Positions 493 through 17,239 of a DNA stretch of 22,908 nt are shown here, piece after piece. Within the stretch, counting starts at the first letter, position 1, and each line of letters starts with the position of its first letter. Below the pieces are notes generated by a model. That model was not told where the DNA came from. It saw nothing but the letters and a program-made list of their open reading frames with translations, and did not search any database. The DNA is taken from positions 1 to 22,908 of the IMG/VR virus record IMGVR_UViG_3300025147_000044; one strand, 5' to 3'. Both the position numbers and the translations under genes were made by a program. Source of the stretch: a virus.

Positions 493-1239
493 CTATACTA
501 TTTCTCCTTTCAAAAACTTATTTACAAAATACACTTGGCCTTTGCCTGTAACCTTTGGTGTCTTATTAATTGTTGTGTGTCCATCGGAGTGCGAGATTAC
601 AGTTTCCTTAATTTCGAATAGTCCTTGTTCCATGGATTTCTGAGTTGGCATGTTGTAGGAAAAACCTTTCTTTTGGATAAGATATCCGTTTTTCCTCAGC
701 GATTCAAAGAGTCTGTTCTGGCCTATCTGGTGGCCGTTCTGCTGAATAAGCTTTGCGAGATCTCCGATAAGGATGCAAGTTTTCGATGTGGCCACGCTAT
801 CAGCAAAAAGCGCTTTCGGTTTGAGTGCTTCGATGTGTCCTTCAAGTGCTTTCTTTTCTTCCTGTTCCTGAATCCATGCTTTAGCTCTCTCGATTGGATC
901 AGCTATCTGGTATGATGGCGCCTGATTGACTAGCATCTTCTCCATGCGGTTGAATGCTTCGATGTACTTAAGTTTCCATTCCAAAGCTTTTTGTCCGGTA
1001 AATCCCATTACCAGGAGCGAGAATCCATCTCTGGTTAAGAGGTATTCTTTGAAGGCTCTATTGTTTTCGTTTTTGTATTCAGATTCGAAAAAGAGCATTC
1101 CCCAATTTTGGGGAGTGAGATTTGCTTTGATTGATTCGATATCTCTAATCAAATGGTCATGTCTTTTCTCGAAATTCTCTGCAATCTGTCTGCTGTTTAC
1201 AACTACCTGTCCATTATTGATTATCGCTAGATTACTCAT
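493..1239 (-). CDS. Rha-family / KilAC phage antirepressor
   Basis: This 248-residue protein has two parts. Residues about 1-105 match the Rha regulatory domain, with the motif KRHDHLIRDI at 25-34 and YLLTRDGFSLLVMGFTGQKA at 66-85. Residues about 125-245 match the KilA C-terminal (ANT) domain common at the end of phage antirepressors. Proteins of this architecture interfere with the CI-type repressor or bind DNA in temperate phages, favouring lytic growth. The gene lies in the early minus-strand operon, overlaps the upstream 61-residue gene by 8 bases, and is followed without a gap by a 49-residue gene. The domain assignment is secure. The actual target, probably the repressor at 2543-2881, is inference from context. 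Confidence 0.92.
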   Translation of the reverse strand: MSNLAIINNGQVVVNSRQIAENFEKRHDHLIRDIESIKANLTPQNWGMLFFESEYKNENNRAFKEYLLTRDGFSLLVMGFTGQKALEWKLKYIEAFNRMEKMLVNQAPSYQIADPIERAKAWIQEQEEKKALEGHIEALKPKALFADSVATSKTCILIGDLAKLIQQNGHQIGQNRLFESLRKNGYLIQKKGFSYNMPTQKSMEQGLFEIKETVISHSDGHTTINKTPKVTGKGQVYFVNKFLKGEIV

Positions 1240-1417
1240 ACTTCCTGATCACTACTCCTTTATCATCTATCTCAAAAAAGTCATAAAGTTCACGAATACA
1301 GTGAAATGGTTCTCCACCGGAAATAATAAAGACCGTTCTGCCATCGTCATTTGCGAGTAGTCCTTGAATTCTCCGGCCGTCTCGCTTTGCTGCTGCTCGG
1401 ATGTATTTCTTTTCCAT
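1232..1417 (-). CDS. Small early protein, 61 aa, unknown function
   Basis: The start is ATG at 1415-1417 with AGAAGGTG about 8 bases upstream. The product is a small soluble protein that begins with a basic stretch (KKYIRAAAKRDGRR) and has an acidic C-terminal half. No family is recognised. It is the first gene after the terminator at 1480-1508, and its end overlaps the antirepressor start by 8 bases, so it probably leads a sub-operon that includes the antirepressor. It may help set antirepressor translation through coupling, but that is inference. Confidence 0.7.
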   Translation of the reverse strand: MEKKYIRAAAKRDGRRIQGLLANDDGRTVFIISGGEPFHCIRELYDFFEIDDKGVVIRKYE

Positions 1418-1479
1418 TTATTCACCTTCTTAATTTTCTATTTCTATCTGTCTCAATTCATACACAAGTGTTTGGCCAT

Positions 1480-1508
1480 AAAAATAGAGGCCTAGAGGCT
1501 AGACCTCT
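1480..1508 (-). terminator. Intrinsic terminator within the early operon
   Basis: Read on the minus strand, a 10-bp stem (AGAGGTCTAG with CTAGGCCTCT, one G-T pair) with a 3-base loop is followed by ATTTTTAT. It lies just after the zinc-ribbon gene ending at 1525 and before the 61-residue gene starting at 1417, so it would separate the Cro-proximal genes from the antirepressor unit. Confidence 0.75.
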
Positions 1509-1524
1509 TAAAGTCCTACCATAT

Positions 1525-1731
1525 TCAATCCTCCACATAAAATTCATGGAACCGCATTGGCTCTCCACACCTGGAACAGGTTATCTCTTGCCCAACATGA
1601 TCGCCCGTGAAGGGTTCTCCGTAAATTTCAACGAATGATTCGTATGGCCATTCGATAATCCCTAAGCACTGCGGACATTCCACTGTGACCCTTGTAATTT
1701 GTCGTACTCCGACAACAACAACCGATTTCAT
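1525..1731 (-). CDS. Small zinc-ribbon protein, 68 aa
   Basis: The preferred start is ATG at 1729-1731, because AAGGAG sits 7 bases upstream. A longer frame exists but lacks such a site and overlaps the neighbouring 49-residue gene. Two CxxC pairs at C19/C22 and C52/C55 form a likely zinc ribbon. The rest is acidic and has no other recognisable domain. Such small zinc ribbons are common in phage early operons and may bind nucleic acid or host proteins, but the role here is unknown. Its stop codon is followed by the hairpin terminator at 1480-1508. Confidence 0.75.
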   Translation of the reverse strand: MKSVVVVGVRQITRVTVECPQCLGIIEWPYESFVEIYGEPFTGDHVGQEITCSRCGEPMRFHEFYVED

Positions 1732-1745
1732 TTCTTCACTCCTTT

Positions 1746-1895
1746 TTAGGCAACTACATATAGGAACGCCACCCATGACATCGCACCTGCAATGACCAAG
1801 ATTAATTCTAGAAATGCAACCGGCAATGATTCTTCGTGCTGCTCTCTATCCATCAGTTCTCTGTGCCTTCTCCTATAAAAATCCGCTTTATTCAT
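1746..1895 (-). CDS. Small single-pass membrane protein, 49 aa
   Basis: This short gene runs from ATG at 1893-1895 to TAA at 1746-1748. An AAAGGTGG ribosome binding site precedes the start. The first 25 residues are highly charged (MNKADFYRRRHRELMDREQ is the start) and residues about 27-48 form one hydrophobic membrane segment ending close to the C-terminus. It overlaps the upstream HTH gene by 8 bases, and its end lies just before the AAGGAG of the zinc-ribbon gene, as expected for a coupled operon. The function is unknown; small phage membrane proteins of this form can affect host envelope or superinfection, but nothing here proves it. Confidence 0.6.
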   Translation of the reverse strand: MNKADFYRRRHRELMDREQHEESLPVAFLELILVIAGAMSWVAFLYVVA

Positions 1896-2151
1896 GTGAT
1901 CCACCTTTCTCTACAATTCCAGCAATAATATTTAGTGTGCTTTTTAATTTTTCGTTTTCTTTCAGAACACGTTCATATTCTTCTTTCAGCACATACTTTT
2001 CAGGATTTTTGATTCTTTCGAGTTCTGATTCATATATGGTCAGATATCCTTTTGGCGAAACTAAGCATTTTATCTCACCTTTTTGGGCTAAATTTCTGAC
2101 CGCTGCATAGCTCATTCCTGACTCTTTAGCAAATACTTTTGGTGATATCAT
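1888..2151 (-). CDS. Excisionase-like / MerR-type HTH protein
   Basis: This 87-residue protein has an N-terminal winged-helix-like segment (residues about 1-50, including SGMSYAAVRNLAQKGEIKC) of the kind found in excisionase and MerR-type DNA-binding proteins. A charged coiled-coil follows at about 50-80. It starts at an ATGA overlap with the end of the Cro-like gene, and its AGGAGG site lies inside that gene, so the two are cotranslated. The position beside the regulatory switch and the small size fit an excisionase or an accessory early regulator. Which of these it is cannot be decided from sequence alone. Confidence 0.7.
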   Translation of the reverse strand: MISPKVFAKESGMSYAAVRNLAQKGEIKCLVSPKGYLTIYESELERIKNPEKYVLKEEYERVLKENEKLKSTLNIIAGIVEKGGSHE

Positions 2152-2345
2152 TTCTTGCCTCCTAACAATTCATTTCTTTCAACCCCAAGAGCTTTCGCTA
2201 TTTTATCCAACACTTCTAAAGTTGGATTATTCTTGTCGCCTCGCTCAAGATTGGCAATATATCCGGCTGATACGCCTGATTCTTTTGCTAGCGCACCTTG
2301 GGATAAACCCTTTTTTAATCTAAGTTTTTTCAAATTCTTTAACAT
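2148..2345 (-). CDS. Cro-like XRE-family repressor
   Basis: This 65-residue protein is almost entirely one XRE helix-turn-helix domain, with LSQGALAKESGVSAGYIANL as the HTH and the typical ...NNPTLEVLDKIAKALGV segment after it. The start ATG at 2343-2345 is chosen because GAGGAGGTG lies just upstream; a longer frame to 2387 would begin inside the operator. It is the first gene of the minus-strand early operon and diverges from the CI-like repressor gene across five operators, the classic position of Cro. It probably binds the 15-bp TGTTCT..AGAACA sites to shut down the repressor promoter and its own promoter. Confidence 0.88.
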   Translation of the reverse strand: MLKNLKKLRLKKGLSQGALAKESGVSAGYIANLERGDKNNPTLEVLDKIAKALGVERNELLGGKK

Positions 2346-2363
2346 GTTTTCACCTCCTCTTTT

Positions 2364-2378
2364 TGTTCTCTGAGAACA
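2364..2378. promoter_or_regulatory. Operator O1 of the immunity region
   Basis: The sequence TGTTCTCTGAGAACA is a perfect palindrome with 7-base half sites around one central base. It overlaps the -10 end and the start region of the leftward early promoter, so a bound repressor would block transcription of the Cro-like operon. Confidence 0.8.
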
Positions 2379-2405
2379 TAATACCATGTTCTAACAGAAC
2401 ATCAA
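2378..2405 (-). promoter_or_regulatory. Leftward early promoter
   Basis: On the minus strand the -35 is TTGATG (2400-2405) and the -10 is TATTAT (2378-2383) with a 16-base spacer, and TGG just before the -10 gives an extended -10. Operator O2 fills the spacer and O1 abuts the -10. It would drive the Cro-like gene and the early operon. Confidence 0.7.
2387..2401. promoter_or_regulatory. Operator O2 of the immunity region
   Basis: TGTTCTAACAGAACA has 6-base inverted half sites identical to those of O1. It lies between the -35 and -10 of the leftward promoter, 23 bases centre to centre from O1, about two helical turns. Confidence 0.8.
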
Positions 2406-2438
2406 ACCCCAAATTATAATGATTATGGTCTTTTATCG

Positions 2439-2453
2439 TGTTCTGTCAGCGCA
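2439..2453. promoter_or_regulatory. Operator O3, degenerate
   Basis: TGTTCTGTCAGCGCA has one perfect half site (TGTTCTG) and one degraded half (CAGCGCA against CAGAACA). It lies between the two divergent promoters and may be a weak or asymmetric site. Confidence 0.6.
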
Positions 2454-2480
2454 TAACTCTCGAATGCTCTGTTTTTCGCC

Positions 2481-2509
2481 TTGATTTATATTCTGACAGA
2501 ATATATAAT
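2481..2509 (+). promoter_or_regulatory. Repressor-side promoter
   Basis: TTGATT (2481-2486) and a perfect TATAAT (2504-2509) are separated by exactly 17 bases, which is near consensus for the main sigma factor. The spacer is filled by operator O4. Transcription should begin near 2516, which excludes the ATG at 2510 as the repressor start. Confidence 0.85.
2489..2503. promoter_or_regulatory. Operator O4 of the immunity region
   Basis: TATTCTGACAGAATA is a perfect 7+1+7 palindrome differing from O1/O2 only at the second base of each half (A/T instead of G/C). It exactly occupies the spacer of the repressor promoter, so it can switch that promoter off. Confidence 0.78.
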
Positions 2510-2523
2510 ATGCTTACAGAACA
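2509..2523. promoter_or_regulatory. Operator O5, half site
   Basis: TATGCTTACAGAACA contains one perfect half (CAGAACA) and a poor left half. It covers the predicted start of the repressor transcript, so it could serve autoregulation. Confidence 0.5.
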
Positions 2524-2542
2524 TGAAAGGAAGTGTAACAAA

Positions 2543-2881
2543 GTGCTTGGCGAAAATTTAAAAAGATTGAGATTGTCCTTAGGACTTGGTGTAAATGATT
2601 TGTCGAGGATTTCTGAAGTGAATGCGAGTTATATCAGTGCAATTGAAAATGGGAAAAAGAATAATCCGTCAAGAAACGTATTAGAGAAGCTAGCTCAAGC
2701 ATTGAACGTTTCGGTTGAAGTATTATTAATAGAAAAAATGATTCCCGATAACGAGAAAAACATTGATGTTAGCGAAGAGGGGTTGAAGGTTTTATTTAAT
2801 AAAATTAGAAACTTATCTGAAAGCGATCAAAGAAAAATCAAGGCAGTTATAGATGCATTTGAAAAGGAATCTCAAGAATGA
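2543..2881 (+). CDS. CI-like XRE-family phage repressor
   Basis: This 112-residue protein has an N-terminal XRE helix-turn-helix domain (about residues 1-65, with SRISEVNASYISAIENGKKN) and an acidic C-terminal helical region of about 45 residues that probably mediates oligomerisation. There is no LexA-type self-cleavage domain. I chose the GTG at 2543 because AAAGGAAG lies 9 bases upstream and the promoter at 2481-2509 would start transcription near 2516. The ATG at 2510 would lie before the transcript start, and the frame can be extended upstream only through the operators. It diverges from the Cro-like gene and heads the repressor-ImmA-integrase operon. It presumably holds lysogeny by binding the 15-bp operators. 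Confidence 0.87.
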   Translation: MLGENLKRLRLSLGLGVNDLSRISEVNASYISAIENGKKNNPSRNVLEKLAQALNVSVEVLLIEKMIPDNEKNIDVSEEGLKVLFNKIRNLSESDQRKIKAVIDAFEKESQE

Positions 2882-2888
2882 GGTGACA

Positions 2889-3224
2889 ATGGATTTTAAT
2901 TATGACGATCTTATAAGGCATATGAAAAAATTAATTGATTGTGGCGAACTTACAATTCTATTCATGAAATTTAGTGACATAGGTGGAATGACAACATCGA
3001 GAAATGGTCATACACTTATTGTCATAAACTCAGCACAATCACCAGAAAAACAACTTAAGAGCTTCATCCATGAGGCAATTCACGTTTATTTAAATCACGA
3101 TGCTGAAAGTAAGGAAGAGTCTGAAAACCTCACTGATTTCGTCACTAGTCGAATCATTGATGAATTGAAGGAGGTTAAAAAATATGAAGGGATCTGTAGA
3201 GAAGTATCTGTTGCAAGCGGATGA
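2889..3224 (+). CDS. ImmA/IrrE-family metalloprotease
   Basis: This 111-residue protein carries the zinc-protease motif HEAIH at residues 61-65, followed by VYLNHDAESKEESE, as in the ImmA/IrrE (peptidase M78-like) family. The start ATG at 2889 follows AGGTG by a few bases, 7 bases after the repressor stop. It is shorter than many family members (often 150 or more residues), though the core motif is intact. In the related ICEBs1 system ImmA cleaves the repressor ImmR to start induction. The same role on the repressor just upstream is strongly suggested here, because that repressor lacks a self-cleavage domain. Its last 41 bases overlap the integrase start. Confidence 0.85.
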   Translation: MDFNYDDLIRHMKKLIDCGELTILFMKFSDIGGMTTSRNGHTLIVINSAQSPEKQLKSFIHEAIHVYLNHDAESKEESENLTDFVTSRIIDELKEVKKYEGICREVSVASG

Positions 3225-4263
3225 TGTTAGGTGGAGATATAAGATATTTATATCCAATGAAAAGGGAGGAAGGATAAAGAAAGACGGCTTTCTAAAGAAG
3301 AAGGATGCCGAAAGTGCATTGCGAAAGCACTTGGATCAGCTAGAAAGATTGAACGGTGTTCAAACAAACATTATGACGGTTGAGGACTTTTCGGATGATT
3401 TTTACGAAAAGAAAAAAGGTAGCGATATCGAAATCACTACCTCGGAAAGATATAAATTATTCAAGAATGACATTAACAAATACCTGGGTAAAATAAAACT
3501 GATTGAGTTGAATGTGATTGATATCGAGAAGTTCTACATCACTTTGCGAGATGAAAGAAAACTCTCCAACAGTACAATTGTTAAAACTCACAGATACCTA
3601 AGAATGATGCTCGACAATGCCGAAAAGAAGATGCTTATCGATAAGAATCCTGCAAGATTAGCCGATACGCCATCTGTAGACAAATTCGCATATTCAATAT
3701 GGCAGCCTGATGAGATTGAGTCTAACTTGATTAAGCTTAAGCCCTCTTACCTTTATAATCTGATCTATCTGGCCGTACATACTGGTGGAAGGCTCGGAGA
3801 GCTACTATCACTAACCTGGGATGACATAGATCTTGCTGAAGAAGTGATTTCGTTTAATAAGAATCTGGCTCTTATCAATAATGTTATCACTATCAAAAAA
3901 CCGAAAACAGAGCATTCGACCAGGAAGATCACAATTCTTGAAGATACATTGCCTTACATGAAGAAAATGAGATCTAGAATTGATACCAATTTGGTAGCCC
4001 ATGATCTGAATGGGCAGTATTGGAATCCTAAGTATATCAGTAAAGCTTTTAGGGTTGAGTTACAGCGATATGGTGTTAAATCGATTCGGTTTCATGACTT
4101 AAGGCACACTCATGCGTCCTGGCTTTTGAGCGTTGGCGTAGATCCAAAGGTAATATCTGAAAGACTAGGACATTCCGATGTGGCTTTTACACTTCAGACT
4201 TACACCCACCTAGGATTAGATCACCAAAGGGAAGAAATGAAAAAGCTCAAAGGTATACTCTAA
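3184..4263 (+). CDS. int: Tyrosine-recombinase phage integrase
   Basis: This 359-residue protein has an N-terminal arm-binding domain (about 10-60), a SAM-like core-binding domain (about 65-150) and a C-terminal catalytic domain (about 170-359). Visible catalytic residues are R203 (TGGRLGELLSLTW), H304 and R307 in HDLRH, H330 in LGHSDVAF and the nucleophile Y340 in TYTHL. The catalytic lysine lies in the KKPKTEHSTRKI hairpin. A GGAGG site 8 bases before the ATG marks the start, inside the end of the ImmA gene. The gene ends 70 bases from the tRNA-Ser-half attachment core, the usual arrangement for tRNA-targeting integrases. It should catalyse insertion into the host tRNA-Ser(UGA) gene and, with an excisionase, excision. 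Confidence 0.97.
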   Translation: MKGSVEKYLLQADDVRWRYKIFISNEKGGRIKKDGFLKKKDAESALRKHLDQLERLNGVQTNIMTVEDFSDDFYEKKKGSDIEITTSERYKLFKNDINKYLGKIKLIELNVIDIEKFYITLRDERKLSNSTIVKTHRYLRMMLDNAEKKMLIDKNPARLADTPSVDKFAYSIWQPDEIESNLIKLKPSYLYNLIYLAVHTGGRLGELLSLTWDDIDLAEEVISFNKNLALINNVITIKKPKTEHSTRKITILEDTLPYMKKMRSRIDTNLVAHDLNGQYWNPKYISKAFRVELQRYGVKSIRFHDLRHTHASWLLSVGVDPKVISERLGHSDVAFTLQTYTHLGLDHQREEMKKLKGIL

Positions 4264-4278
4264 AATACAAAAAAATAA

Positions 4279-4298
4279 GTGCACATTTTAGTGCACAT
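4279..4298. repeat. Putative integrase arm-type site, left of attP
   Basis: This stretch contains two GTGCAC motifs 12 bases apart and the string TGCACATTTT(A)GTGCA at 4280-4295. A near-identical copy lies on the other side of the core at 4510-4524. Paired repeats flanking an attP core are typical of integrase arm-binding sites. Confidence 0.55.
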
Positions 4299-4333
4299 AA
4301 CTCAAAACTTATTCATGAAAAAGTCGCTATAAA

Positions 4334-4391
4334 TGGCGGAGAAAGAGGGATTCGAACCCTCGGTGCGGTCTCCCGCACGCCGGTTTTCAAG
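4334..4391 (-). other. attP core: 3' half of tRNA-Ser(UGA)
   Basis: Read on the minus strand this is the 3' half of a class II serine tRNA. It has the anticodon loop CTTGAAA (4385-4391, anticodon TGA), the 3' anticodon strand ACCGG (4380-4384), a long variable arm with stem TGCGG/CCGCA, a T arm GAGGG-TTCGAAT-CCCTC (4345-4361), the acceptor strand TTTCTCC, a discriminator G, and an encoded CCA (4334-4336). Bases beyond 4391 (CTGAC on the minus strand) cannot pair with ACCGG, so no 5' half is present and this is not a working tRNA gene. It sits beside the integrase with phage genes on both sides. It is therefore an attP core whose crossover lies in or after the anticodon loop, and integration would rebuild an intact host tRNA. 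Confidence 0.9.
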
Positions 4392-4509
4392 GTCAGTGCA
4401 TCCGTTAATTTTGTTTGATTTCTTTTTAGATTATTTCGCAATAAGCTCATTAATTAAGCCTTTTAAATGTTCTGTATGAAACAAATTAAAACATCGTGAA
4501 AAACATGAC

Positions 4510-4524
4510 TGCACATTTTGTGCA
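4510..4524. repeat. Putative integrase arm-type site, right of attP
   Basis: TGCACATTTTGTGCA matches the left-arm string at 4280-4295 except for one extra base there. The two copies are about 230 bases apart with the tRNA-half core roughly between them. The 4263-4586 stretch has no gene; it holds these arms, the core and the following terminator. Confidence 0.55.
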
Positions 4525-4542
4525 ACAAATGAGGTTTTCAGA

Positions 4543-4585: not shown

Positions 4586-4798
4586 TTAAATATCCCAGGT
4601 CTTACCACAATCCTGGCATACGGCTTTTGTATTCATTTTTGACTTATTACCTCTTAAAAGTACAATAAGCGCAATCCATCCAATTATAGGTATAAAAAGT
4701 AGAATTAAATAAAATAATACCGATAAACATCCTCTTCTTTTAACCTCTGATACTACTTGTGTTTGTGTGTTTTCGCTTCCGCATTTAGGGCATTTCAT
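4586..4798 (-). CDS. Zinc-ribbon membrane protein, 70 aa
   Basis: The protein begins MKCPKCGSEN and ends with a second cysteine pair (C61/C64 after C3/C6), so the two ends of the chain can form one zinc ribbon. A hydrophobic region at about residues 25-48 (with a PIIGW turn) should insert in the membrane as one segment or a hairpin. The start ATG at 4796-4798 has GGAGG 8 bases upstream, and two TATAAT matches lie upstream at 4827-4840 (minus strand) without a clear -35. It is transcribed toward attP and stopped by the hairpin at 4543-4582. Similar zinc-ribbon membrane proteins occur in Gram-positive phages near attachment sites. A lysogenic-conversion or superinfection role is possible but unproven. 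Confidence 0.8.
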   Translation of the reverse strand: MKCPKCGSENTQTQVVSEVKRRGCLSVLFYLILLFIPIIGWIALIVLLRGNKSKMNTKAVCQDCGKTWDI

Positions 4799-4884
4799 TT
4801 TCCATATCCTCCGATATTTTTCTTTTATTATAGCATTATATTTAATCGTTTACTATTATTTACAATTTGTTAATAATTAGTTTG

Positions 4885-4913
4885 TTGACTATTGCACCGC
4901 AATACGTTATTAT
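4885..4913 (+). promoter_or_regulatory. Consensus promoter of the accessory operon
   Basis: TTGACT (4885-4890) and TATTAT (4908-4913) are separated by exactly 17 bases, close to consensus for the main sigma factor. Transcription should start near 4920, 30 bases before the 55-residue gene. The spacer holds the palindrome at 4890-4904. Confidence 0.8.
4890..4904. promoter_or_regulatory. Palindromic operator candidate in the accessory promoter
   Basis: TATTGCACCGCAATA has perfect 6-base half sites around 3 bases and occupies the promoter spacer. It has the same 15-bp size and spacer placement as the immunity operator O4 but a different sequence, so it is probably read by another regulator, perhaps the AbrB-like protein encoded downstream. 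Confidence 0.55.
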
Positions 4914-4950
4914 TAAATCATAGAAAGAAATAAGAAAGGCGGTAAACAAA

Positions 4951-5118
4951 ATGAAAAGAACAGATAAAGACATAATCAAAGTGGAGAGAATGAATTACAA
5001 AATAGCGAAGGATGAATACAGATGGTTCCAGACGATCGACGGAAGTTATGATCCTAAGACAAAAACAATCGAAGTAGTAACACAGTGCAGAACATACTAT
5101 ATTGAAGACGAAATCTAA
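4951..5118 (+). CDS. Small accessory protein, 55 aa, unknown function
   Basis: The frame runs from ATG at 4951 to TAA at 5116-5118, with AAGAAAGGCGG upstream as ribosome binding site. The protein begins MKRTDKDIIKVERMNYKIAK and ends CRTYYIEDEI. It is hydrophilic, rich in Lys, Tyr and Thr, with predicted beta character and one cysteine. No family is recognised. It is the first gene after the near-consensus promoter at 4885-4913 and shares the operon with a 66-residue protein and an AbrB-like protein. Its place between attP and the lysin, on the strand opposite to the late genes, fits a gene expressed in the lysogen. Confidence 0.65.
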   Translation: MKRTDKDIIKVERMNYKIAKDEYRWFQTIDGSYDPKTKTIEVVTQCRTYYIEDEI

Positions 5119-5126
5119 AATCTTAA

Positions 5127-5151
5127 TCAGGTGCCGGACCTGACAACCGGC
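5127..5151 (+). other. Two mutually exclusive small hairpins before the 66-aa gene
   Basis: TCAGGT (5127-5132) can pair with ACCTGA (5138-5143) around GCCGG. Alternatively GCCGG (5133-5137) can pair with CCGGC (5147-5151), which abuts the GAAGGG ribosome binding site at 5152-5157. The two foldings exclude each other, so this may tune translation of the next gene. The stems are short, so this is tentative. Confidence 0.35.
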
Positions 5152-5166
5152 GAAGGGATGAAGAAA

Positions 5167-5367
5167 ATGGAAAACTTAAGTTTTGAAAAGCAATTAGAAG
5201 TAGGATCCCAGATATTTAATGCAAACCGGAAACATTTACGATATATGAATAGAATCAGTGCAAGATTAACGCAACCTGAATGGATGGCAATGTTTGATAG
5301 AAATAAGAACATCATGAAAATGTACATAGACTATATGAAAAATATAAGCACAGAAGGAGGAAAATAA
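5167..5367 (+). CDS. Small accessory protein, 66 aa, unknown function
   Basis: I chose ATG at 5167 because GAAGGG (5152-5157) lies 9 bases upstream. The upstream in-frame GTG at 5131 has no ribosome binding site, and ATG 5158 directly touches the GAAGGG. The protein begins MENLSFEKQLEVGSQIFNAN and is mostly helical and charged, with several methionines near the C-terminus. It has no signal peptide or recognised domain. Its stop codon is one base before the start of the AbrB-like gene, whose ribosome binding site GGAGG lies within its last codons, so the two are translationally coupled. A partner role for the AbrB-like protein is plausible but not shown. Confidence 0.7.
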   Translation: MENLSFEKQLEVGSQIFNANRKHLRYMNRISARLTQPEWMAMFDRNKNIMKMYIDYMKNISTEGGK

Positions 5368-5368
5368 C

Positions 5369-5815
5369 ATGAAAAGAACCGCAAAAGTATCAGTCACCAA
5401 TCCAGGAGGGAATGCCTCAAAAGGATCCCTCCGATATACTCTTACACTTCCCCCGATTATGATGCAAGAATTAGGGATAACCCCTGAAGATAGAGACATA
5501 GTAATTACCCTAGAAGATAATAAAATAATCATAGAAAAAGGAGAAGCAGAAATGGAGATCAAGAGATTTACAGGGATTAAGCAGGCGGTAGGGCATTTTA
5601 ATAATCATCAAGGACATGCGGAAATCATGTTAGATAAGGAGTCTGGTAAAGTGTGGTGTGATGTATTTGCAAGCGGAAATGAGTGGAAAGAATATCACGA
5701 TCATAGCGTTGTCAGATTGATGTCAAAGGCTACTGTAAGCATGTGGGAAAGAGATGATAAGACAAGCATGAGAGAAATCAACGAGAAAGCGGAAGAAATG
5801 ATGAAAACCGAATAA
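5369..5815 (+). CDS. AbrB/SpoVT-like DNA-binding protein with unknown C-terminal domain
   Basis: This 148-residue protein has an N-terminal AbrB-like swapped-hairpin domain at about residues 6-58, with GSLRYTLTLPPIMMQELGIT followed by the DRDIVITLEDNKIIIEK strands. Residues about 62-148 form a separate part with Trp and His residues (KVWCDVFASGNEWKEYHDHS) and a helical acidic tail, which I cannot assign. AbrB-fold proteins serve as transition-state regulators or as antitoxins. The gene follows the 66-residue gene by one base, ends the operon, and converges on the amidase gene across a terminator. It may regulate its own promoter through the palindrome at 4890-4904. No cognate toxin family is recognised among the neighbours. 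Confidence 0.8.
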   Translation: MKRTAKVSVTNPGGNASKGSLRYTLTLPPIMMQELGITPEDRDIVITLEDNKIIIEKGEAEMEIKRFTGIKQAVGHFNNHQGHAEIMLDKESGKVWCDVFASGNEWKEYHDHSVVRLMSKATVSMWERDDKTSMREINEKAEEMMKTE

Positions 5816-5860: not shown

Positions 5861-6970
5861 TTACTTCAATTTTATGTATTGTGCTGACACCCATCCTTGG
5901 TTAGGACCCCAGGCTACCTTATACCAGCCCGGCTTAGATTCCATGATCCAGACCTCGGAACCATCTTCCAGGATGCCTATCTTCTTTCCATTGGCATCGT
6001 CCCGGACATTAAGATAAGGCTTGGCCATGACCGTTGCATACTGTACCTTTGGCGCAACGACTATTGGGACCGGCGCCTTGTCCATGCTAATCCAGTCAGC
6101 GGATACATACCCGGTAGGTGTTTCCCACCACCCCCTGTCAAGGCCGTACAAGGTCACTGGAGCGTCCTTATGTATGGTCTTGATAATTGCATTACCCGTG
6201 CCCGGTCCACTCCGTACGTTAAGCACTGAAGCTGTGACATAACCAGTCAATGCCTCTTTGAGATAGGCAGTGCTGCAGTATCCCACAACTCCATCATATT
6301 TTACTTTCGCCCATGCACCTGATACTGAGTAGATGGATACTTTCCTGAATTTAGGCATTGTAGCAAGTATTTTAAAGTTGGTACCAGGACCGTATCTGAC
6401 ATTTAGGTTTTCTGTGCATATCTTTTCTGCAATAGCTTTTTCCAGTGGAGCCACTACAGGCTTATCAATGGCCTTTTGTACATCTGATCTAAACATGTCC
6501 ATGGTGTATCCAAATTTACTCCACCAATGCCGGGGATCTCCGTGATTGGATCCTAATCCCGCAAGGTATGCCTCATAGTGTGCGATTACCCGATTGACTG
6601 GTATATTAAACTTCACACACCATTGAGCAACTTTTTTGATGGTATTGGCCAATACTTTACGGAAATAGACTTCTGAATGGTCCTTATCCTCGCACATTTC
6701 TATTTGTAGCGCATATCCATTTGCTTTACCGCCTACACCCCAAGCCCAAAAGTTTAATGGGAGAAGTTGCCAAAATTCAAGGTCATCGATAAAAGCGTGA
6801 ATGCCTACTTTACGATCTCCATTATTCCATCGTTTAAACCACTCCTTGGCCATTACACCAGGAGTGGCTGTAGAGTGGATGATGATCATAGTTGGAACAA
6901 TACTGATATTATTCTTAACATTCCAGATATAGCATAGATTGAAGATCATGTACTGTATGAATTCTTTCAT
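5861..6970 (-). CDS. Endolysin: N-acetylmuramoyl-L-alanine amidase with three SH3b domains
   Basis: This 369-residue endolysin has an N-terminal amidase-2 (PGRP-like) domain at about residues 25-165. Candidate zinc ligands are H32 (IIIHSTATP), H131 (VIAHYEA) and D145 (with H143) in the SNHGDPRHWW motif. Three SH3b-type wall-binding repeats follow at about 185-240, 242-295 and 310-369, each beginning with an L-N-V-R motif and ending with G-Y/W-(V/C)-S. It should cut the amide bond between muramic acid and the peptide stem during host lysis. There is no signal peptide, so export depends on the adjacent holin. AAGGAGG lies before the ATG, and the start is 2 bases from the holin stop. It is the last gene of the late operon. 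Confidence 0.93.
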   Translation of the reverse strand: MKEFIQYMIFNLCYIWNVKNNISIVPTMIIIHSTATPGVMAKEWFKRWNNGDRKVGIHAFIDDLEFWQLLPLNFWAWGVGGKANGYALQIEMCEDKDHSEVYFRKVLANTIKKVAQWCVKFNIPVNRVIAHYEAYLAGLGSNHGDPRHWWSKFGYTMDMFRSDVQKAIDKPVVAPLEKAIAEKICTENLNVRYGPGTNFKILATMPKFRKVSIYSVSGAWAKVKYDGVVGYCSTAYLKEALTGYVTASVLNVRSGPGTGNAIIKTIHKDAPVTLYGLDRGWWETPTGYVSADWISMDKAPVPIVVAPKVQYATVMAKPYLNVRDDANGKKIGILEDGSEVWIMESKPGWYKVAWGPNQGWVSAQYIKLK

Positions 6971-6972
6971 AA

Positions 6973-7479
6973 CTATTCCTCCTTGGAACTCGTAGCTGTA
7001 ACTGTTTCCTTAACTGATTCTGTAGTGATGCCGTCAATTGTTTCGGTAGTTGCCTGGTTTACAGTTCGTATAGTTGTAGGTTCTTTCTTCCCGCCCTCTT
7101 TTAATTGTAAGAGTACTTCTTTTAGTTTATCTGGAACTGGTACTCCTAATCTTGCAGCATTCTCTAGTATTGATATGCCTTCCATGCCTGCGTAAAATAA
7201 TATGGCTAGCATCCGGATTGTGCCTTGGGTTCCTGTTACATGGTCGATTCCCACGGCCACAGCTACGATTAATAGAATCATCATTTTTTTGAAGATTCCA
7301 TTGATCCCAACTTCACTTGACAACTCTTTGTCCTTTATTGCCCTCATGATGCCTGTTACGTAGTCAATCCCCATGAACAGCAAAAGAACGTAAATTGCCA
7401 TGTCCCAACCCCCTAAGAGTTCAACCACTAAAGTTCCACCTACGGCTATCATACTTGCTATCTTTTTGTCCCATGTCAT
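6973..7479 (-). CDS. Phage holin (TcdE/holin-4-1 type)
   Basis: This 168-residue protein has four hydrophobic segments at about residues 8-23, 26-45, 64-80 and 88-105, with GIDYVTGIMRAIKDKELSSE between the second and third, a hallmark of the toxin-secretion/lysis holin family. The C-terminal 45 residues are a Thr-, Glu- and Ser-rich hydrophilic tail. Holins of this family form membrane lesions that let the amidase reach the wall. An AAGGAG site precedes the ATG, and the gene sits just upstream of the amidase, completing a two-gene lysis cassette. The Thr-rich tail is longer than usual for the family and may modulate timing. Confidence 0.9.
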   Translation of the reverse strand: MTWDKKIASMIAVGGTLVVELLGGWDMAIYVLLLFMGIDYVTGIMRAIKDKELSSEVGINGIFKKMMILLIVAVAVGIDHVTGTQGTIRMLAILFYAGMEGISILENAARLGVPVPDKLKEVLLQLKEGGKKEPTTIRTVNQATTETIDGITTESVKETVTATSSKEE

Positions 7480-7575: not shown

Positions 7576-7604
7576 ATTGCTATATCAATTAAATTTATAG
7601 CAAT
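7576..7604. repeat. Inverted repeat over the tail-fibre stop codon
   Basis: ATTGCTATA (7576-7584) and TATAGCAAT (7596-7604) are a perfect 9-base inverted repeat with an 11-base AT-rich loop. The stop codon of the tail-fibre gene lies inside it. No T run follows, so it may protect the mRNA end or help termination at 7505-7531. Confidence 0.5.
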
Positions 7605-9319
7605 GCCCCAATCAACGTATTAGCAATATCGGTATGTCCTGCCAGTGTAGGATGAACGCCGTCCGCTATATATCCATAAACTTCATTGGCTAATTTTCCA
7701 CATCCCCATTTGCCATATAAATCAAGAAATGCACAGTTATTTAGTATGGATAAATCCGCCATCGCGTTGACATACTCCATTTGTTTTATCGGATTTGATG
7801 TATCGTCCGTCCTTGTTCCAACTGAAAATAATAAGCAATCGCCATATGTCAGTGCTTGTGTTATTGCGGCCTGTACTAAGTTTTTATAATCAGCTATCGG
7901 ATTTTGTCCACCGTAATCATTTGAAATAAGCGGTATAATAGTCAAAATTGGTGCGAAAGCCTTTGCGTTTCTCAAGCTGTGCGGATGAAACGCCGCTCCT
8001 GTCGCTAATCCAAACCTACCGATATTATTTACACGTATTCCGGCAGTTCCTTTTAGTGGGGTTATGCCATTTAGTATTGTTTGCGTAACATTTGTAATGG
8101 TAATAGTGTGTTCTCCGTCCACCAATCCGGTTTTGGTATACCATATACCCTGAGCATCCCCCTCGAAATATGTGCTGATAGTTTCAGATGCACCACCGTC
8201 AACGGAAATTTGAACATCCCCTGTCCACCACGTTTTTGTGAGCAATACTTTTACCCCTGTACCCTCAAATGTTATTGTTGCAGATTCGCCGGGAACATTG
8301 GTTGCAAGGGAATATGTATTTAATGAAAATCCTGAAATGCCTCCACCGTCAGCCCATGCACCATTCAATGTCCAATATAAAGATGGCTCTAAAAATGGGT
8401 ATCTACCCTCTATGAACCCACTCCCTACATCACCGTACAATGCTTTGATACGATCTTTAAATTGCGCTACAAACCCCTTTGTAATCCAATCAGGTATGGG
8501 CAATCCAGCCCCGTCAGCGTTGCTATCCCCATGTATTACAATGTCATAAATAACAGTGTTCCCGCTTTTTATATCAGCTAACGCTCTGCGCCATTTTCGT
8601 AAGCCGATAGCCGAATTAAACAGATAGTTACCATTAGACATCAATTGTGATTTAACCCATGAGATATTTGCTCCTATGCTGCCTTCGCCTTGCCTTGCAT
8701 CTATGATTTCTTGGGCAATTACTTCGCCCACTGGAACAGGTGTTGTGATGATGTCGTCAACTCGGTTCTGAACTGCCGCCAATGACGTATCAACGCCATC
8801 CAATCTAGCATCTAAATTTACCTTTCCACCTCGGGCATTTATTACCTCAGCATCTACAGTTACACCAGCGATAACTTCTTCAAACTCTTGCTTAAGGCTT
8901 CCAAATTCTCCTAAGGCTGCTTGCAATGCGCTATAGTCATTACTGGATACGATCACATCGGATTTATTAGATTTATACACCATGATCGAAAAAGTCATTG
9001 ACCGTACAAATTCAGTTCCTTGGTTGATCTCAAACTCGGCATACACGATGCCTGGAACAGCAAATACTTGACTCATGTTTTCGATGTAAAACTTTCCGCC
9101 CTCAAGCGTTGCTGCAATATAGCCATCAGTCCCGTCAGGTTTTTGAAACCACATTCGGATTGTCTCTGTTGATGGAGTGATGATCACACTGTTTTGCACC
9201 AGGGTAATTATTATCCCTCTCCCTGTATCGTCTGTTTTTCCCCAGGGTTCAAAGTCAAGGCGTTTCGATGCAAGGTCCCATTTAACCTTGGAGTAACTAT
9301 CTCTTAAGTTTATTGCCAT
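7595..9319 (-). CDS. BppU-SGNH tail fibre / baseplate esterase
   Basis: This 574-residue protein joins an N-terminal BppU-type baseplate-attachment domain (about 1-140) to a linker with the fibre-like motifs NARGGKVNLDARLD and DARQGEGSIGANI, and then an SGNH-hydrolase domain. The hydrolase shows the GDS motif with S266, a NDYG motif (block III), and the C-terminal DGVHP with D553 and H556 as the other catalytic residues. A beta-rich stretch at about 330-420 (GTGVKVLL..., ISVDGG) looks like an inserted carbohydrate-binding module. Such enzymes usually remove acetyl groups from surface sugars. As a late tail gene next to other baseplate proteins, it probably binds and trims host-surface glycan. 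AGGAGG lies upstream of the ATG. Confidence 0.88.
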   Translation of the reverse strand: MAINLRDSYSKVKWDLASKRLDFEPWGKTDDTGRGIIITLVQNSVIITPSTETIRMWFQKPDGTDGYIAATLEGGKFYIENMSQVFAVPGIVYAEFEINQGTEFVRSMTFSIMVYKSNKSDVIVSSNDYSALQAALGEFGSLKQEFEEVIAGVTVDAEVINARGGKVNLDARLDGVDTSLAAVQNRVDDIITTPVPVGEVIAQEIIDARQGEGSIGANISWVKSQLMSNGNYLFNSAIGLRKWRRALADIKSGNTVIYDIVIHGDSNADGAGLPIPDWITKGFVAQFKDRIKALYGDVGSGFIEGRYPFLEPSLYWTLNGAWADGGGISGFSLNTYSLATNVPGESATITFEGTGVKVLLTKTWWTGDVQISVDGGASETISTYFEGDAQGIWYTKTGLVDGEHTITITNVTQTILNGITPLKGTAGIRVNNIGRFGLATGAAFHPHSLRNAKAFAPILTIIPLISNDYGGQNPIADYKNLVQAAITQALTYGDCLLFSVGTRTDDTSNPIKQMEYVNAMADLSILNNCAFLDLYGKWGCGKLANEVYGYIADGVHPTLAGHTDIANTLIGALL

Positions 9320-9330
9320 ATCAATACCTC

Positions 9331-9684
9331 CTATATTCCTATGCTGTCATAGACAGGGATTTCAAATGTCGGTGAGCTTATAATCTTTCCATTCACCTCA
9401 AGCTCTAAGTCTGCTTGTACTCCATTGCTAACTTGATTTAGGATTAGATCATCTAATTCGATGTTAAATGCTCCATTAACGATGACAGCTGCAGTGGATT
9501 GAAATGTTCCATCTGCAGCTCTAAACCTGATTTTCAATGTTTCTGTTCCTGGTACTAGAATTATATTGTCTGCTGCTATGGTGACTCTTAGCCCTCTGCC
9601 TGTATCTGAACTCTTAGCCCAGAAACCACTAAGCACTGATCTATTCGTAATGTCCCAGATGATGCTTTTATAGTTTATGGCCAT
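9331..9684 (-). CDS. Stand-alone BppU-family baseplate protein
   Basis: This 117-residue protein consists of a single BppU N-terminal-type domain. It shares a clear pattern with the start of the next gene: M-A-I-N at the start, W-D near 10-11, D-T-G-R-G at residues 27-31, and P-G/S-T-E-T-(L/I)-(K/R) at 45-51. The two are therefore paralogues. BppU attaches receptor-binding proteins to the Dit/Tal core in lactococcal-type phages. Here one copy stands alone and the other is fused to the esterase. A GGAGGTGATGTAA site overlaps the stop of the preceding gene just before this ATG, so the two are translationally coupled. Confidence 0.85.
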   Translation of the reverse strand: MAINYKSIIWDITNRSVLSGFWAKSSDTGRGLRVTIAADNIILVPGTETLKIRFRAADGTFQSTAAVIVNGAFNIELDDLILNQVSNGVQADLELEVNGKIISSPTFEIPVYDSIGI

Positions 9685-10056
9685 TTACATCACCTCCGGA
9701 ATAATAGGTTCAAAGGTTAACGATGCGTTGTCGAGTTCTTCTTTCGGGATATACTTTAAGATCAATAACTGAAGGGCTGAATTTTCAACAAGCTTCACAA
9801 GGCTGACATTCTCCGGGTTTACCACACCATCCAAGACATAATCCTCGATGTCCTTAATTCCTGTGCTCAATCCTTTTACGATGGCCAGTCTTATCGTTTG
9901 CTCCGGGGTTAAACTTACATTTTCAATCACCACGTTTTGAAACTTAGAATTATCCAGATATGGGCTTTCATCCGTATCATAAGCCGTGTGTGTTTTTGTG
10001 TAGGTTATCTTTTTCGTGTGAGGTTTCCACTCACAGTTCTCATCTTGGTAAAACAT
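9685..10056 (-). CDS. Baseplate-module protein, unknown function
   Basis: This 123-residue protein begins MFYQDENCEWKPHTKKITYT and has a short aromatic and charged N-terminal region followed by a helical C-terminal part. No domain is recognised. The ATG is preceded by AGGAGG, and the stop abuts the BppU start. Its place between Tal and BppU, the usual site of small tail-tip accessory proteins, suggests a structural or assembly role in the baseplate. The sequence alone does not show whether it is in the virion. Confidence 0.75.
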   Translation of the reverse strand: MFYQDENCEWKPHTKKITYTKTHTAYDTDESPYLDNSKFQNVVIENVSLTPEQTIRLAIVKGLSTGIKDIEDYVLDGVVNPENVSLVKLVENSALQLLILKYIPKEELDNASLTFEPIIPEVM

Positions 10057-10065
10057 ATTTGCCTC

Positions 10066-12738
10066 CTATACATCCTTCGTTACCGTGACTCTAACTTCTA
10101 CAGCATCCAGGATTGCGTATCCGCTATTTAGGTTTCCGTTAAAAAATTTCAATGTTGCTCCACCGGACCCAAATACTGCCGCTGGAACTGTTGTCCACTC
10201 ACTCCAGATTCCTTGACCTATGGCATTGAATGCCTCTGAAGGAGAGAAGTTATAGGCCGTAGGAACTACACCTGCACTTGTTCCATGTGAGCTGTTCTTT
10301 CGTCTGACTCTCATTTCAACAATCACATTGTATCCACCCTGCCAGTAGTTATAGATATTAGATCCAAAAGTCATGACACCATCTTTCCAATAACTCATTC
10401 CGCTGTATCTACCTTGTGCTGCAGTAGCACCATAGTAGCTATCCACGCTTGCTGTATCGTGATTGACGGTATACATCGATGATGGGCCGAATACTGCCGT
10501 GAAGGTCTTAGCCGTTACCGGTGGCACGTTGAAAGTTGAAGCTGTTGGGTTTAAGGTTCCATGTATTGTTCCGAAATCTTCATAAGCCGGAGCATTCGGA
10601 GAAGTTCCCCATGTATGAATAACAGATCCATTTTGAGCAACTAGACCATTAGCTAATGCGTTTCCTCTTGTGTTTTTACATCGCCCTGTAGCTCCATCGG
10701 TCATGATAATACACCAATTCGCATTTACGATATCCACATTGTCACATTTGACCATTGCGCCTTGAGATCCTAATATTCCGGCTCCACCATTTACACCACA
10801 ATCAATATTTAGTGCCGTGATACTGACATAACTATTTTTTGCGATTATCGGCTCTGTGGTGGTTCTTTGTATTAAACCCATGCCATTAGTGCTTTGCAAA
10901 ACCACTAATATGGAGTTATCCTCTGAGGTAATATTTCCGTTTATCACTGCTGTATTTACAAAATCTAGTATTATCAGTCCGGCACCTGAATAGCCCTTGA
11001 TTGAAATTTCTTCGTTTATCGTTCCAAAAATATCAAAGTGTATATCTACACCGTTTAAGATTTTACGCCCTTTGAGGACTGTATTTAGTACATAATTCAC
11101 TGAGCTATAGGCACACCCCTCACCAATAGCATATGAAGCACCTTGATTAATAACACCTGGAATAACCGGACAGTCATAATCATCTGCTTCAAAGTAAGGG
11201 ATGACCGCTCCGGATTCTCCGAAGGCTGCAACTAACTTCTCTCCATCTTTTACCTGCAGGCCATTGTATTGCAAATCTGTATGTACGCTTGCAGTACCGC
11301 TTCCAATTTTAAATGTCTTATTGGAGAGATCTATCTCAAGAGTTCCGTCTATGCTTCTCAGCTTTCCAGTGGTGACTTCTCCAAGGTTTGCGCTTATGGC
11401 ACTTAGACTTTCAGTTAAAATAAACGATGCAACGATCTTTCCGTCCATAGTGATGGCGGTCGCATAAGGTCCATTGATCCCTGTAGAGCTGTAGCCAAAT
11501 CCATTGAGATTCGCTCTCCACAGCTTAGTAGCTGTAGCCGGGTCCTCTGTATCCATAATCAGGATTTCACCAGGTCGCTTTACAACATGTCCGCCTAAGG
11601 CGTTTGTCAATAGCGTTGTAGCTTCGTCTATGGCTTTCTCCAGGTCTGTTTTATTTAACGATATAACTGATGCCATATCATTTATCAAACCGTTGAGCTT
11701 AGTCAGAGCGTTTGCTGTGGTCTTAGTGAATGATCCTATCTCAACATCAGCATTCTTGCCTGTGAGCAGATCCTTTTTTATTCTAATTATCCTTGCTTTG
11801 TGATTAAGACCTAAATCTTTGTAGGTGCATTGGACTGTATCACCCAATCTGACTTTAACAAGGTTCTGGAATGCTTTATATTTTGTTGTATTCTCAAGCA
11901 ATATCAAATCAACTTTGATGTTTTTGACTGGTATATCGCATTGCGTATTCGTGTAATAGGCCAATGCTGCAGCCCTTAAAAGGACGATTGCAGCAGCTTC
12001 ATCGATATCATTATCAGCATCTACACCAATATCGAATTCCACTTCTTTAATGTGAGGGTCGGGAAATTCATTTAGGTGAGCACTATCAACATAAACCTCA
12101 GGAAGTTCAAGCCCGTCTTTGCCCTTAGGTCTCATACGAGTTATCAGACTGTCCCAGTCGCTTTCAATCACTACACCTTTGATGTTCTTTCCGTACTCAA
12201 TTGTAGCGCCATTGTCAGCCCCTATACGCCCCTTGATAGCTATCACATGATTATTAACCTCAAGTTCTCCACCCCATCTTGTTAGGATTGAATCAGAGCC
12301 TATGAGGCATTGCATTGGATTCTTGTTAATAAAATATTGTGTATTCACGGTTGCAATATCAGAGGATGCTGTGAAGGGATGAGGAAAATTAGTTCCGTTT
12401 AGGACATCCTGCATGGCACCTAAACAGTTCTTGTTTGTTGGTCTAACATCCCTTACTTCATTGCCTAATAAATCCCATACTCGATGCCTGCAATATATCG
12501 TGGATTCAGTGGCATTATCTATCACTTTGTAAATTCTGAAAGGTTGCTCATCCATATAGATAAGCCTTCCTTCCCTAATCAACTTCCATTTTTCAGCCTT
12601 GTCATGTTTGACATCAATTTCAGCAGTGTAGTACTTATTTAGGGCATTATCAGATTCTGCTCTGGTTACAATATTTGTGATATCACCTAAACCGAAGGAA
12701 CTGTAATCTATTGAATCGTGTTCAAATAGTTTGATCAT
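10066..12738 (-). CDS. Tail-associated protein (Tal/gp27-like) with beta-helix C-terminus
   Basis: This 890-residue protein starts at the ATG overlapping the Dit stop codon (TAATG), with a weak GGGGG site. The N-terminal third (about 1-350) is the Tal/prophage-tail domain that caps the tail tube (gp27/gp44-like, sometimes called endopeptidase tail). A helical linker follows at about 345-385. A conserved fibre segment (ILIMDT, then GFGYSSTGINGPYATAIT) lies at about 385-430. Residues about 510-720 are rich in N-G, V-I and short beta strands, like a right-handed beta-helix that can bind or cut polysaccharide. The last 150 residues (SMSYWKDG... EVRVTVT) look like a beta-sandwich. No protease motif was identified. 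It is the tail-tip centre, next to Dit. Confidence 0.85.
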   Translation of the reverse strand: MIKLFEHDSIDYSSFGLGDITNIVTRAESDNALNKYYTAEIDVKHDKAEKWKLIREGRLIYMDEQPFRIYKVIDNATESTIYCRHRVWDLLGNEVRDVRPTNKNCLGAMQDVLNGTNFPHPFTASSDIATVNTQYFINKNPMQCLIGSDSILTRWGGELEVNNHVIAIKGRIGADNGATIEYGKNIKGVVIESDWDSLITRMRPKGKDGLELPEVYVDSAHLNEFPDPHIKEVEFDIGVDADNDIDEAAAIVLLRAAALAYYTNTQCDIPVKNIKVDLILLENTTKYKAFQNLVKVRLGDTVQCTYKDLGLNHKARIIRIKKDLLTGKNADVEIGSFTKTTANALTKLNGLINDMASVISLNKTDLEKAIDEATTLLTNALGGHVVKRPGEILIMDTEDPATATKLWRANLNGFGYSSTGINGPYATAITMDGKIVASFILTESLSAISANLGEVTTGKLRSIDGTLEIDLSNKTFKIGSGTASVHTDLQYNGLQVKDGEKLVAAFGESGAVIPYFEADDYDCPVIPGVINQGASYAIGEGCAYSSVNYVLNTVLKGRKILNGVDIHFDIFGTINEEISIKGYSGAGLIILDFVNTAVINGNITSEDNSILVVLQSTNGMGLIQRTTTEPIIAKNSYVSITALNIDCGVNGGAGILGSQGAMVKCDNVDIVNANWCIIMTDGATGRCKNTRGNALANGLVAQNGSVIHTWGTSPNAPAYEDFGTIHGTLNPTASTFNVPPVTAKTFTAVFGPSSMYTVNHDTASVDSYYGATAAQGRYSGMSYWKDGVMTFGSNIYNYWQGGYNVIVEMRVRRKNSSHGTSAGVVPTAYNFSPSEAFNAIGQGIWSEWTTVPAAVFGSGGATLKFFNGNLNSGYAILDAVEVRVTVTKDV

Positions 12739-13424
12739 TAGCAATTCCCCCAGTTTGGTATAATTTCAACTTTTGTGACCGTACCAACCCACGATATGAC
12801 ATTATCTCCAGTCACTAACTTTGGCCACTCATTGGCTGCCACATCATTATTTTTTGGGGTTAGGTCCTTATAGCACTCTCTGATGTCTGCATTGATGGTC
12901 ACATATTCAGAAACATTCTTCAGGATGTAATTGTCATTATTGATTGTCAACGTAATTTCGCCTGTGCCATAGACCTTAATAATAGGATTAGCTGATGCTG
13001 TCCCAGGATTGCTTAAGGTACTCGATCCTAACAAAGTAATCATATCCAAGCCTTCATCAAGATAATTGAGAGGCTGGCACTTGATCTTTATGGTCCCTTG
13101 TCTGAGTAACAACCATCTCGGCCAGTCCACTTGGCCATATATACGGCCTTTGTAAAACACACCAGGCTCGGAGGATAATTTCAATATTCCTTCACCCCTA
13201 AGCCATGCCTTGATGTAATTCAATTTCGTTAAATCCTTAAGTGTGATCAATATCTCTTTATCTATAGGCGCTAAGGATTCGTCATCGTTGTAGAGATATC
13301 CATCACGCCCATCGACTTCTTCAAACTTCCCTTTCTGACTTGCAGTCTGTATAGGAGGAAGTTTGTTTACAACTATTTCCAGATCTTCACTACTTGTGTT
13401 ATTCCAAATGAAATGAGGTAACAT
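12738..13424 (-). CDS. Distal tail protein (Dit, siphovirus tail component)
   Basis: This 228-residue protein is a Dit-like tail component: an N-terminal domain (about 1-115, HFIWNNTSSEDLEIVVNKLP) and a beta-rich C-terminal galectin-like domain after GTIKIKCQPLNYL. ATG at 13422-13424 is chosen for its AAGGAGGAG site; an upstream in-frame start would overlap the tape-measure end. Dit forms the hexameric hub joining tail tube, tape measure and Tal. The order tape measure, Dit, Tal is standard for Gram-positive siphoviruses. The stop overlaps the Tal start by one base, so the two are coupled. Confidence 0.9.
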   Translation of the reverse strand: MLPHFIWNNTSSEDLEIVVNKLPPIQTASQKGKFEEVDGRDGYLYNDDESLAPIDKEILITLKDLTKLNYIKAWLRGEGILKLSSEPGVFYKGRIYGQVDWPRWLLLRQGTIKIKCQPLNYLDEGLDMITLLGSSTLSNPGTASANPIIKVYGTGEITLTINNDNYILKNVSEYVTINADIRECYKDLTPKNNDVAANEWPKLVTGDNVISWVGTVTKVEIIPNWGNC

Positions 13425-13437
13425 GTTAACTCCTCCT

Positions 13438-15642: not shown

Positions 15643-15654
15643 TGCTTCACCTCC

Positions 15655-16352
15655 CTACTGTTTCTTTTCCTTGATATATTTATTAGCAATTTCTAAAGCC
15701 TGTTCTTGAGCCTCTTCAGAGATTGCTGGGGTGATCTGTTTTGTTACTGCATCTTTATATTCCTGGTAGGTCATGTCAGACATGATTGATTTATGCAGAT
15801 AATATTCCATCATCGCTTCTTCCTGAATTTCTCCCATAAGAAAGACAATGTAATCGTAAAGCTCTCTAGTATTGGATAGGGTTTTTAGTAATCCATCTAC
15901 ATCGGCATAGCGTTTGAAGAAGATGTCTTTTAAACGTTCTTCTCCTATTTGCTTAAGAATGACGATATAGATTTTATAAAATTTGCAAGTTCAGGCTTCC
16001 TAAAGAAATTTATGATTAATTCTCCATAAATATCAATTTCTAGTTCCTGAATATCTTTCACTGTTGTGCCACAAAGAGAAGCAAGTAGCCTATTGATATC
16101 ATCTTTTCCTCTTTCGATATTCCCCAAGGCCACTTCCATAAGTTCAGCGACAAAATCCATTCCAAGATCAGCCATTTCATCATCGTCTTTTTTAGTCTCA
16201 GCCTTTTCGGGCTTTTTCTTTTTTGCTGAGGCTTTTTCAGTGGCATCAGCTTGCTTTTTAAAGAAAGCCTTAAGCATGTCCTTTATTCCTAACTTAGAAA
16301 ACAATGTCAGTACCGGAAATAAATCCTGGCCTGATAATTTACGCATTTCCAT
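15655..16352 (-). CDS. Tail assembly chaperone GT fusion by -1 frameshift
   Basis: The long product joins residues 1-125 of the gene at 15945-16352 to 107 residues read in the -1 frame from 15978 to the stop at 15655-15657, giving 232 residues. The shift occurs at the heptamer A-AAT-TTT. The -1 frame is open from the heptamer to its stop, and its internal ATG at 15837 lacks a ribosome binding site, so the downstream part is not an independent gene. The extension begins YKIYIVILKQ and ends KYIKEKKQ, and is helical and charged. This copies the lambda G/GT arrangement, in which both products prepare the tape measure for tail tube assembly. It lies between the major tail protein and the tape measure, the canonical place. 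Confidence 0.82.
15945..16352 (-). CDS. Tail assembly chaperone (gpG-like)
   Basis: This 135-residue protein is the unshifted product. It begins MEMRKLSGQDLFPVLTLFSK, has a Lys- and acid-rich hydrophilic stretch at about 40-60 (KKKKPEKAETKKDDDE) and a helical C-terminal domain. GGAGG sits upstream of the ATG. It corresponds to gpG-type chaperones in position, size and presence of a slippery site near its end (codons 124-125 of 135). It should coat or solubilise the tape measure before tube polymerisation and be absent from mature virions. The MTP gene upstream is separated by a hairpin at 16388-16407. Confidence 0.88.
   Translation of the reverse strand: MEMRKLSGQDLFPVLTLFSKLGIKDMLKAFFKKQADATEKASAKKKKPEKAETKKDDDEMADLGMDFVAELMEVALGNIERGKDDINRLLASLCGTTVKDIQELEIDIYGELIINFFRKPELANFIKSISSFLSK
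15978..15984 (-). promoter_or_regulatory. Slippery heptamer A-AAT-TTT for -1 frameshift
   Basis: On the minus strand codons 124-125 read AAT TTT after a final A of codon 123, so both tRNAs can slip back one base (AAA TTT). An SD-like AGGAAG (15996-16001) lies 11 bases upstream, the spacing at which such sites stimulate -1 shifts in bacteria. No strong hairpin lies within 10 bases downstream; a weak GAAGAA/TTCTTC stem lies about 35 bases away. Confidence 0.82.
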
Positions 16353-16387
16353 TTAACTAACCTCCAGATATTTTTGTATAAAGTAAA

Positions 16388-16407
16388 GAGCTAGGTTTCC
16401 CTAGCTC
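16388..16407 (-). terminator. Hairpin over the major tail protein stop codon
   Basis: On the minus strand GAGCTAGG pairs perfectly with CCTAGCTC around a GAAA tetraloop, followed by TTTACTTTAT. The MTP stop codon TAG lies inside the left arm. It probably acts as a partial terminator that lowers transcription of the chaperone and tape-measure genes relative to the abundant tail protein. Confidence 0.7.
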
Positions 16408-17237: not shown

Positions 17238-17239
17238 GT

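Follow-up and report, generated by a model that had tools for sequence, protein, structure and literature searches.

A Probable Non-integrated attP Aimed at tRNA-Ser(UGA) Within 22.9 kb of Temperate Phage DNA

Results and Discussion

Gene Organization Around the Integrase Locus

The stretch of DNA analyzed here (the window, 22,908 bases) is an entire IMG/VR virus record, classed as linear, i.e., without end repeats. Early and regulatory genes and a tyrosine integrase gene occupy its left part, a tRNA-like segment flanked by short repeats follows the integrase, and accessory, lysis and structural genes fill the remainder (Table 1). The catalytic residues R203, H304, R307, H330, and Y340 of the integrase were invariant (n = 10 sequences), and the protein shows the catalytic domain with the R..H-x-x-R..H..Y arrangement of tyrosine recombinases. 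Among the late genes, 7595-9319 (-) codes for a tail-associated protein. It combines a BppU-like N-terminal domain and a CE2-type N-terminal domain with an end resembling GDSL/SGNH hydrolases, and is likely a receptor-binding protein with predicted esterase activity. The start of its neighbor (9331-9684) appeared similar by eye, with no Pfam match, and the major tail protein (16401-17237, minus strand) carries a Big_2 Ig-like domain at the C-terminus.

Table 1. Features of the 22,908-base window in positional order.
Feature	Position	Strand	Basis or remark
Early genes: Rha/KilAC antirepressor, small genes, Cro-like HTH	493..2387	-	
CI-like HTH protein and ImmA/IrrE-like protein	2438..3224	+	
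Tyrosine integrase, 359 aa, stop codon 70 bp before the core	3184..4263	+	PF00589 (E 1e-22), SAM-like domain, weak Arm-DNA-bind_4; phrog_1 (E 4e-68)
Left arm: two AGTGCACAT direct repeats, 12 bp apart; presumed arm-type integrase sites	4278..4301	+	Function predicted
attP core: tRNA-Ser(UGA) 3' half, anticodon loop to CCA, 58 bp	4334..4391	-	Sequence and host tRNA match
CTTGAAA, 7-nt anticodon loop; predicted strand-exchange region	4385..4391	-	Host match starts at its C; halves in relatives; predicted for the window phage
Right arm: ACTGCACATTTT then GTGCAACA; presumed arm-type integrase sites	4508..4527	+	Function predicted
Short accessory genes, attP to lysin	4586..5815	.	
Amidase endolysin with SH3 repeats, and holin	5861..7479	-	
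Tail, major tail, head, capsid, and portal genes	7595..22863	-	Capsid phrog_422 (E 1.4e-97); portal PF05133

The tRNA-Ser(UGA) 3' Half and Its Host Counterpart

The reverse complement of 4334-4391 is CTTGAAAACCGGCGTGCGGGAGACCGCACCGAGGGTTCGAATCCCTCTTTCTCCGCCA, in which the anticodon loop CTTGAAA (anticodon TGA), the 3' strand of the anticodon stem, a long variable arm, the T arm, the 3' acceptor strand, and CCA follow one another. The segment represents half a tRNA, since ARAGORN gave no complete tRNA within the 22,908-base window. The Rfam search returned as its sole result a plastid 3'UTR family over the tRNA-like part, below the gathering score, which was taken as resemblance to a tRNA end and not as membership. 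A megablast match to Vibrio phage HY01 was merely the tRNA-Ser gene of that phage, and no exact copy of either the 58-bp core or the left arm was found among the viral contigs searched.

The host counterpart was sought in 398 genomes sampled from the same phylum as a Lachnospiraceae genome. The best host match to the core showed 92% identity over 60 bp (E about 1.5e-18) and lay in a gene called tRNA-Ser(tga) by ARAGORN, and the core was matched in 73 of the 195 genomes belonging to the family of the best-match genome (E <= 1e-14). The match of the core to tRNA-Ser(UGA) is far beyond chance. In all the host genes displayed, similarity started exactly at CTTGAAA and the 5' half was unlike; immediately upstream of this motif, the phage reads ...atgcactgac as against ...ggcaccggt in the hosts. 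The sampled genomes contained no host tRNA more than 92% identical to the core, and the exact host was not found among them. Tightening the threshold to E <= 1e-18 across the order of G370 gave no match; as this threshold drops even the 92% match of G370 itself, the result says just that nothing better was seen. The host of the window phage is probably of the Clostridia type.

The first-pass annotation, made from the sequence before any search, had placed a tRNA-Ser 3' half between the integrase on the left and accessory plus late genes on the right, which the core sequence, the host match, and the gene map all confirm. It had also named host tRNA-Ser(UGA) as the target, with crossover in or next to the anticodon loop; this is supported by the point at which the host match begins and by related integrases, which split tRNAs at the same loop (see below).

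Short Repeats Flank the Core on Both Sides

The heptamer TGCACAT occurs at positions 4280, 4292, and 4510, around the core, and has no other copy in the 22.9 kb. Two copies of TGCACA on the left together with one on the right were obtained in none of 1000 dinucleotide shuffles of both flanks (0/1000), and the longest single word common to both flanks (10 bp), reached in 40/1000 shuffles (4%), is not rare alone. From their arrangement, the two-sided repeats are presumed to be integrase arm sites.

In lambda-type systems, the sites attL and attR each carry phage arm sites on one side only. Whereas such sites have one-sided arms, the TGCACAT repeats flank the core on both sides, and 4334-4391 was hence read as attP. 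The presumed arm repeats are also near-palindromic and can form hairpins with a T-rich stretch behind them (4296-4279 and 4526-4508, minus strand).

Related Integrases and the Geometry of Their Lysogens

A direct search for the same integrase gave none in viral contigs and only distant ones, with 24-29% identity, in genome contigs. Integrases sharing 32-46% identity with that of the window were found in the G370 family, mostly beside a tRNA gene. Four of the related prophages (G410, G501, G495, and G597), with integrases of about 37-41% identity, resemble the window in that the tRNA 3' end faces the integrase stop codon, but their target is tRNA-Trp, not tRNA-Ser(UGA). In each of them, a complete tRNA-Trp adjoins the integrase and a 3' half on the same strand, beginning at tRNA position 29-32, lies 39.8 kb (G410), 50.2 kb (G501), 41.1 kb (G495), or 38.0 kb (G597) away. 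The order in G410 is tRNA-Trp, integrase, and, at the other end, holin, amidase, accessory genes, and the 3' half, followed by a nitroreductase/ferredoxin gene and a chromate transporter gene of host type. In G597, a complete tRNA-Trp was also seen no more than about 210 bp from the displaced 3' half (G597:C2, 3461145-3461397), a second complete tRNA-Trp being present at the integrase end.

Two more distantly related integrases (L104 and L136; 30-32% identical) adjoin a complete tRNA-Ser with the CTTGAAA loop, the contigs displaying the complete-tRNA side only. The first-pass annotation had called for a search of host genomes for a tRNA-Ser(UGA) sharing the core and for prophages with this integrase at that tRNA. 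The former gave matches of up to 92% from the anticodon loop onward. The latter gave no lysogen with the exact integrase of the window among the contigs and genomes searched.

The layout seen in the window, namely, a tRNA 3' half with repeats on both sides and phage DNA beyond, was also present in other IMG/VR contigs with related integrases. Paired TTGCAAACATTTTGC repeats flank the half tRNA on both sides in L091 and L095, and the far side holds a tail-fiber or endolysin gene in L095 and L102. Hence, an attP within a contig is nothing unusual.

Extent and Arrangement of the Phage Genome

A near-identical contig, G001 (L009/L023), matched the window at 98.9% identity over 11,977 bp (window 10,932-22,908) and runs 13.4 kb past its right end. 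The extension codes for TerL, TerS, HNH, a Holliday-junction resolvase, and DnaD-like, SSB, RecT, and SbcC-like proteins, all on the minus strand, and the phage is therefore at least 36.3 kb long. Neither the window contig nor this 13.4 kb extension contains a recognizable host gene. Two other IMG/VR contigs, from 3300009774 and 3300022561, are 99.9% (L007) and 98.9% (L009/G001) identical to the window in the late genes, which suggests that one phage species is present in several samples.

A second relative, IMG/VR record 2642422541_000001 (G634; 41.4 kb), encodes Rha, SSB, DnaD, holin, and lysin proteins that are 67, 71, 64, 45, and 68% identical, respectively, to those of the window phage, along with a CI-like protein and an integrase, the latter unlike that of the window at merely 24% identity. 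Its integrase gene lies at base 1 and its endolysin gene at 34,027, about 33 kb apart. G634 thus presents this map with its opening beside the integrase, and, as it contains the gene types of the left and right sides in one linear order, both halves of the window are tied to one type of phage. Clostridioides phage CD1801 shares a capsid protein (62%) with the window phage but differs in the tail module. In the relatives L087 and L088, the contigs stop within about 40 bp of the end of the endolysin gene, perhaps owing to an assembly or trimming break.

These observations are consistent with the window being, very probably, a fragment of a temperate phage in a non-integrated arrangement with an attP aimed at tRNA-Ser(UGA). 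The first-pass annotation had put forward a circular genome, virion DNA packaged from elsewhere, or a tandem prophage junction; a circular or permuted map agrees with the G001 extension and with the wide separation of integrase and lysin in G634. Recognizable host genes directly beyond the portal, which would have spoken against it, did not appear: the DNA there carried terminase, replication, and recombination genes. As G001 stops short of the left end of the window and the two do not overlap there, closure of the circle was deduced from the gene order.

At the window, a circle, permuted virion DNA, a concatemer, and two copies of the same phage in tandem at one tRNA-Ser, with the window spanning their junction, have an identical sequence and are separable by reads only. 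Such same-phage tandems are very unlikely here: tandem arrays at one tDNA do occur (125 of 3919 islands in Islander; PMC4383910) but are rare relative to single islands, and the absence of a recognizable host gene from the window contig and G001 argues against one. Still more improbable is a heterologous tandem or chimeric assembly, in which the integrase side and the lysin side would be different phages joined at a common tRNA core. A junction of this kind would result if two phages sat side by side at a single tRNA, and the nearest relatives of the integrase do differ from those of the structural genes; however, G634 combines, in a single record, close relatives of the left-side Rha and of the right-side lysin and holin, and one kind of arm repeat is found on both sides of the core. 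Under a last reading, the prophage has decayed and the tRNA half is what is left of a broken host gene. The chance of this is negligible, and the reading, favored by nothing beyond the segment being a half gene, was rejected in view of the phage DNA on both flanks, the break at precisely the anticodon loop, where the relatives have it too, and the intact integrase. The arm-like repeats and phage genes on both sides thus uphold the earlier description of the segment as an exchange core.

Proposed Integration and Comparison With Known attP Sites

For the non-integrated temperate phage proposed here, the window would be a 22.9 kb piece of a siphovirus-type genome of about 36-40 kb, present as replicating circles, as virion DNA with circular permutation, or as a concatemer. 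What the analysis shows directly is the anatomy, the homology, the match to the target, and the way in which relatives are arranged as lysogens; the state of the source DNA and the steps that follow are deduced. The insertion site would be intact, with phage genes on both sides, because the genome was cut open away from the attachment site. We infer that the integrase binds the arm repeats and, by analogy with its relatives, cleaves and exchanges strands within the 7-bp CTTGAAA, with the same 7 bp of the host tRNA-Ser(UGA). The phage-borne 3' half would then complete the host tRNA gene beside the integrase, while the displaced host 3' half would land at the far, lysin end.

In Islander, attP sites contain a tDNA fragment, and the anticodon-centered class accounts for 2083 of 3919 islands (PMC4383910). 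In the A-site islands and prophages of this class, the fragment covers the 3' part of the tDNA, starting at the anticodon loop and running to the end of the gene, and a tyrosine integrase is adjacent, the gene being restored on integration. At 4334-4391, the tRNA part likewise covers everything from the loop onward, and its 3' end faces the adjacent integrase gene (stop codon to core, 70 bp); the only difference is that the window is seen as an unintegrated attP. The segment reads as an ordinary textbook A-site tDNA attP.

Temperate mycobacteriophages have an attP with a common core of 30-45 bp that rebuilds the tRNA, with exceptions in which the core does not rebuild it (PMC10865867). The window resembles these sites in having a tRNA 3' half as core, flanked left and right by presumed arm sites, but differs in the host phylum and in its longer core (58 bp, including the tRNA-Ser variable arm). 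tRNA-dependent lysogeny involves a core of about 10 bp, no rebuilding of the tRNA, and a complete tRNA borne by the phage (PMC10865867); in the window, the 58-bp core reaches CCA and no complete tRNA is present. There is no departure from the known kind of tDNA attP, in which a 3'-half core rebuilds the tRNA. From sequence alone, it was possible to name the gene targeted by an unclassified environmental phage and to predict its lysogen ends; beyond the naming of the target, the window illustrates a well-known rule.

The left hairpin might, in a lysogen, double as a transcription terminator of the rebuilt tRNA-Ser, a role that is considered quite unlikely; if true, it would link integrase binding with tRNA 3' end formation.
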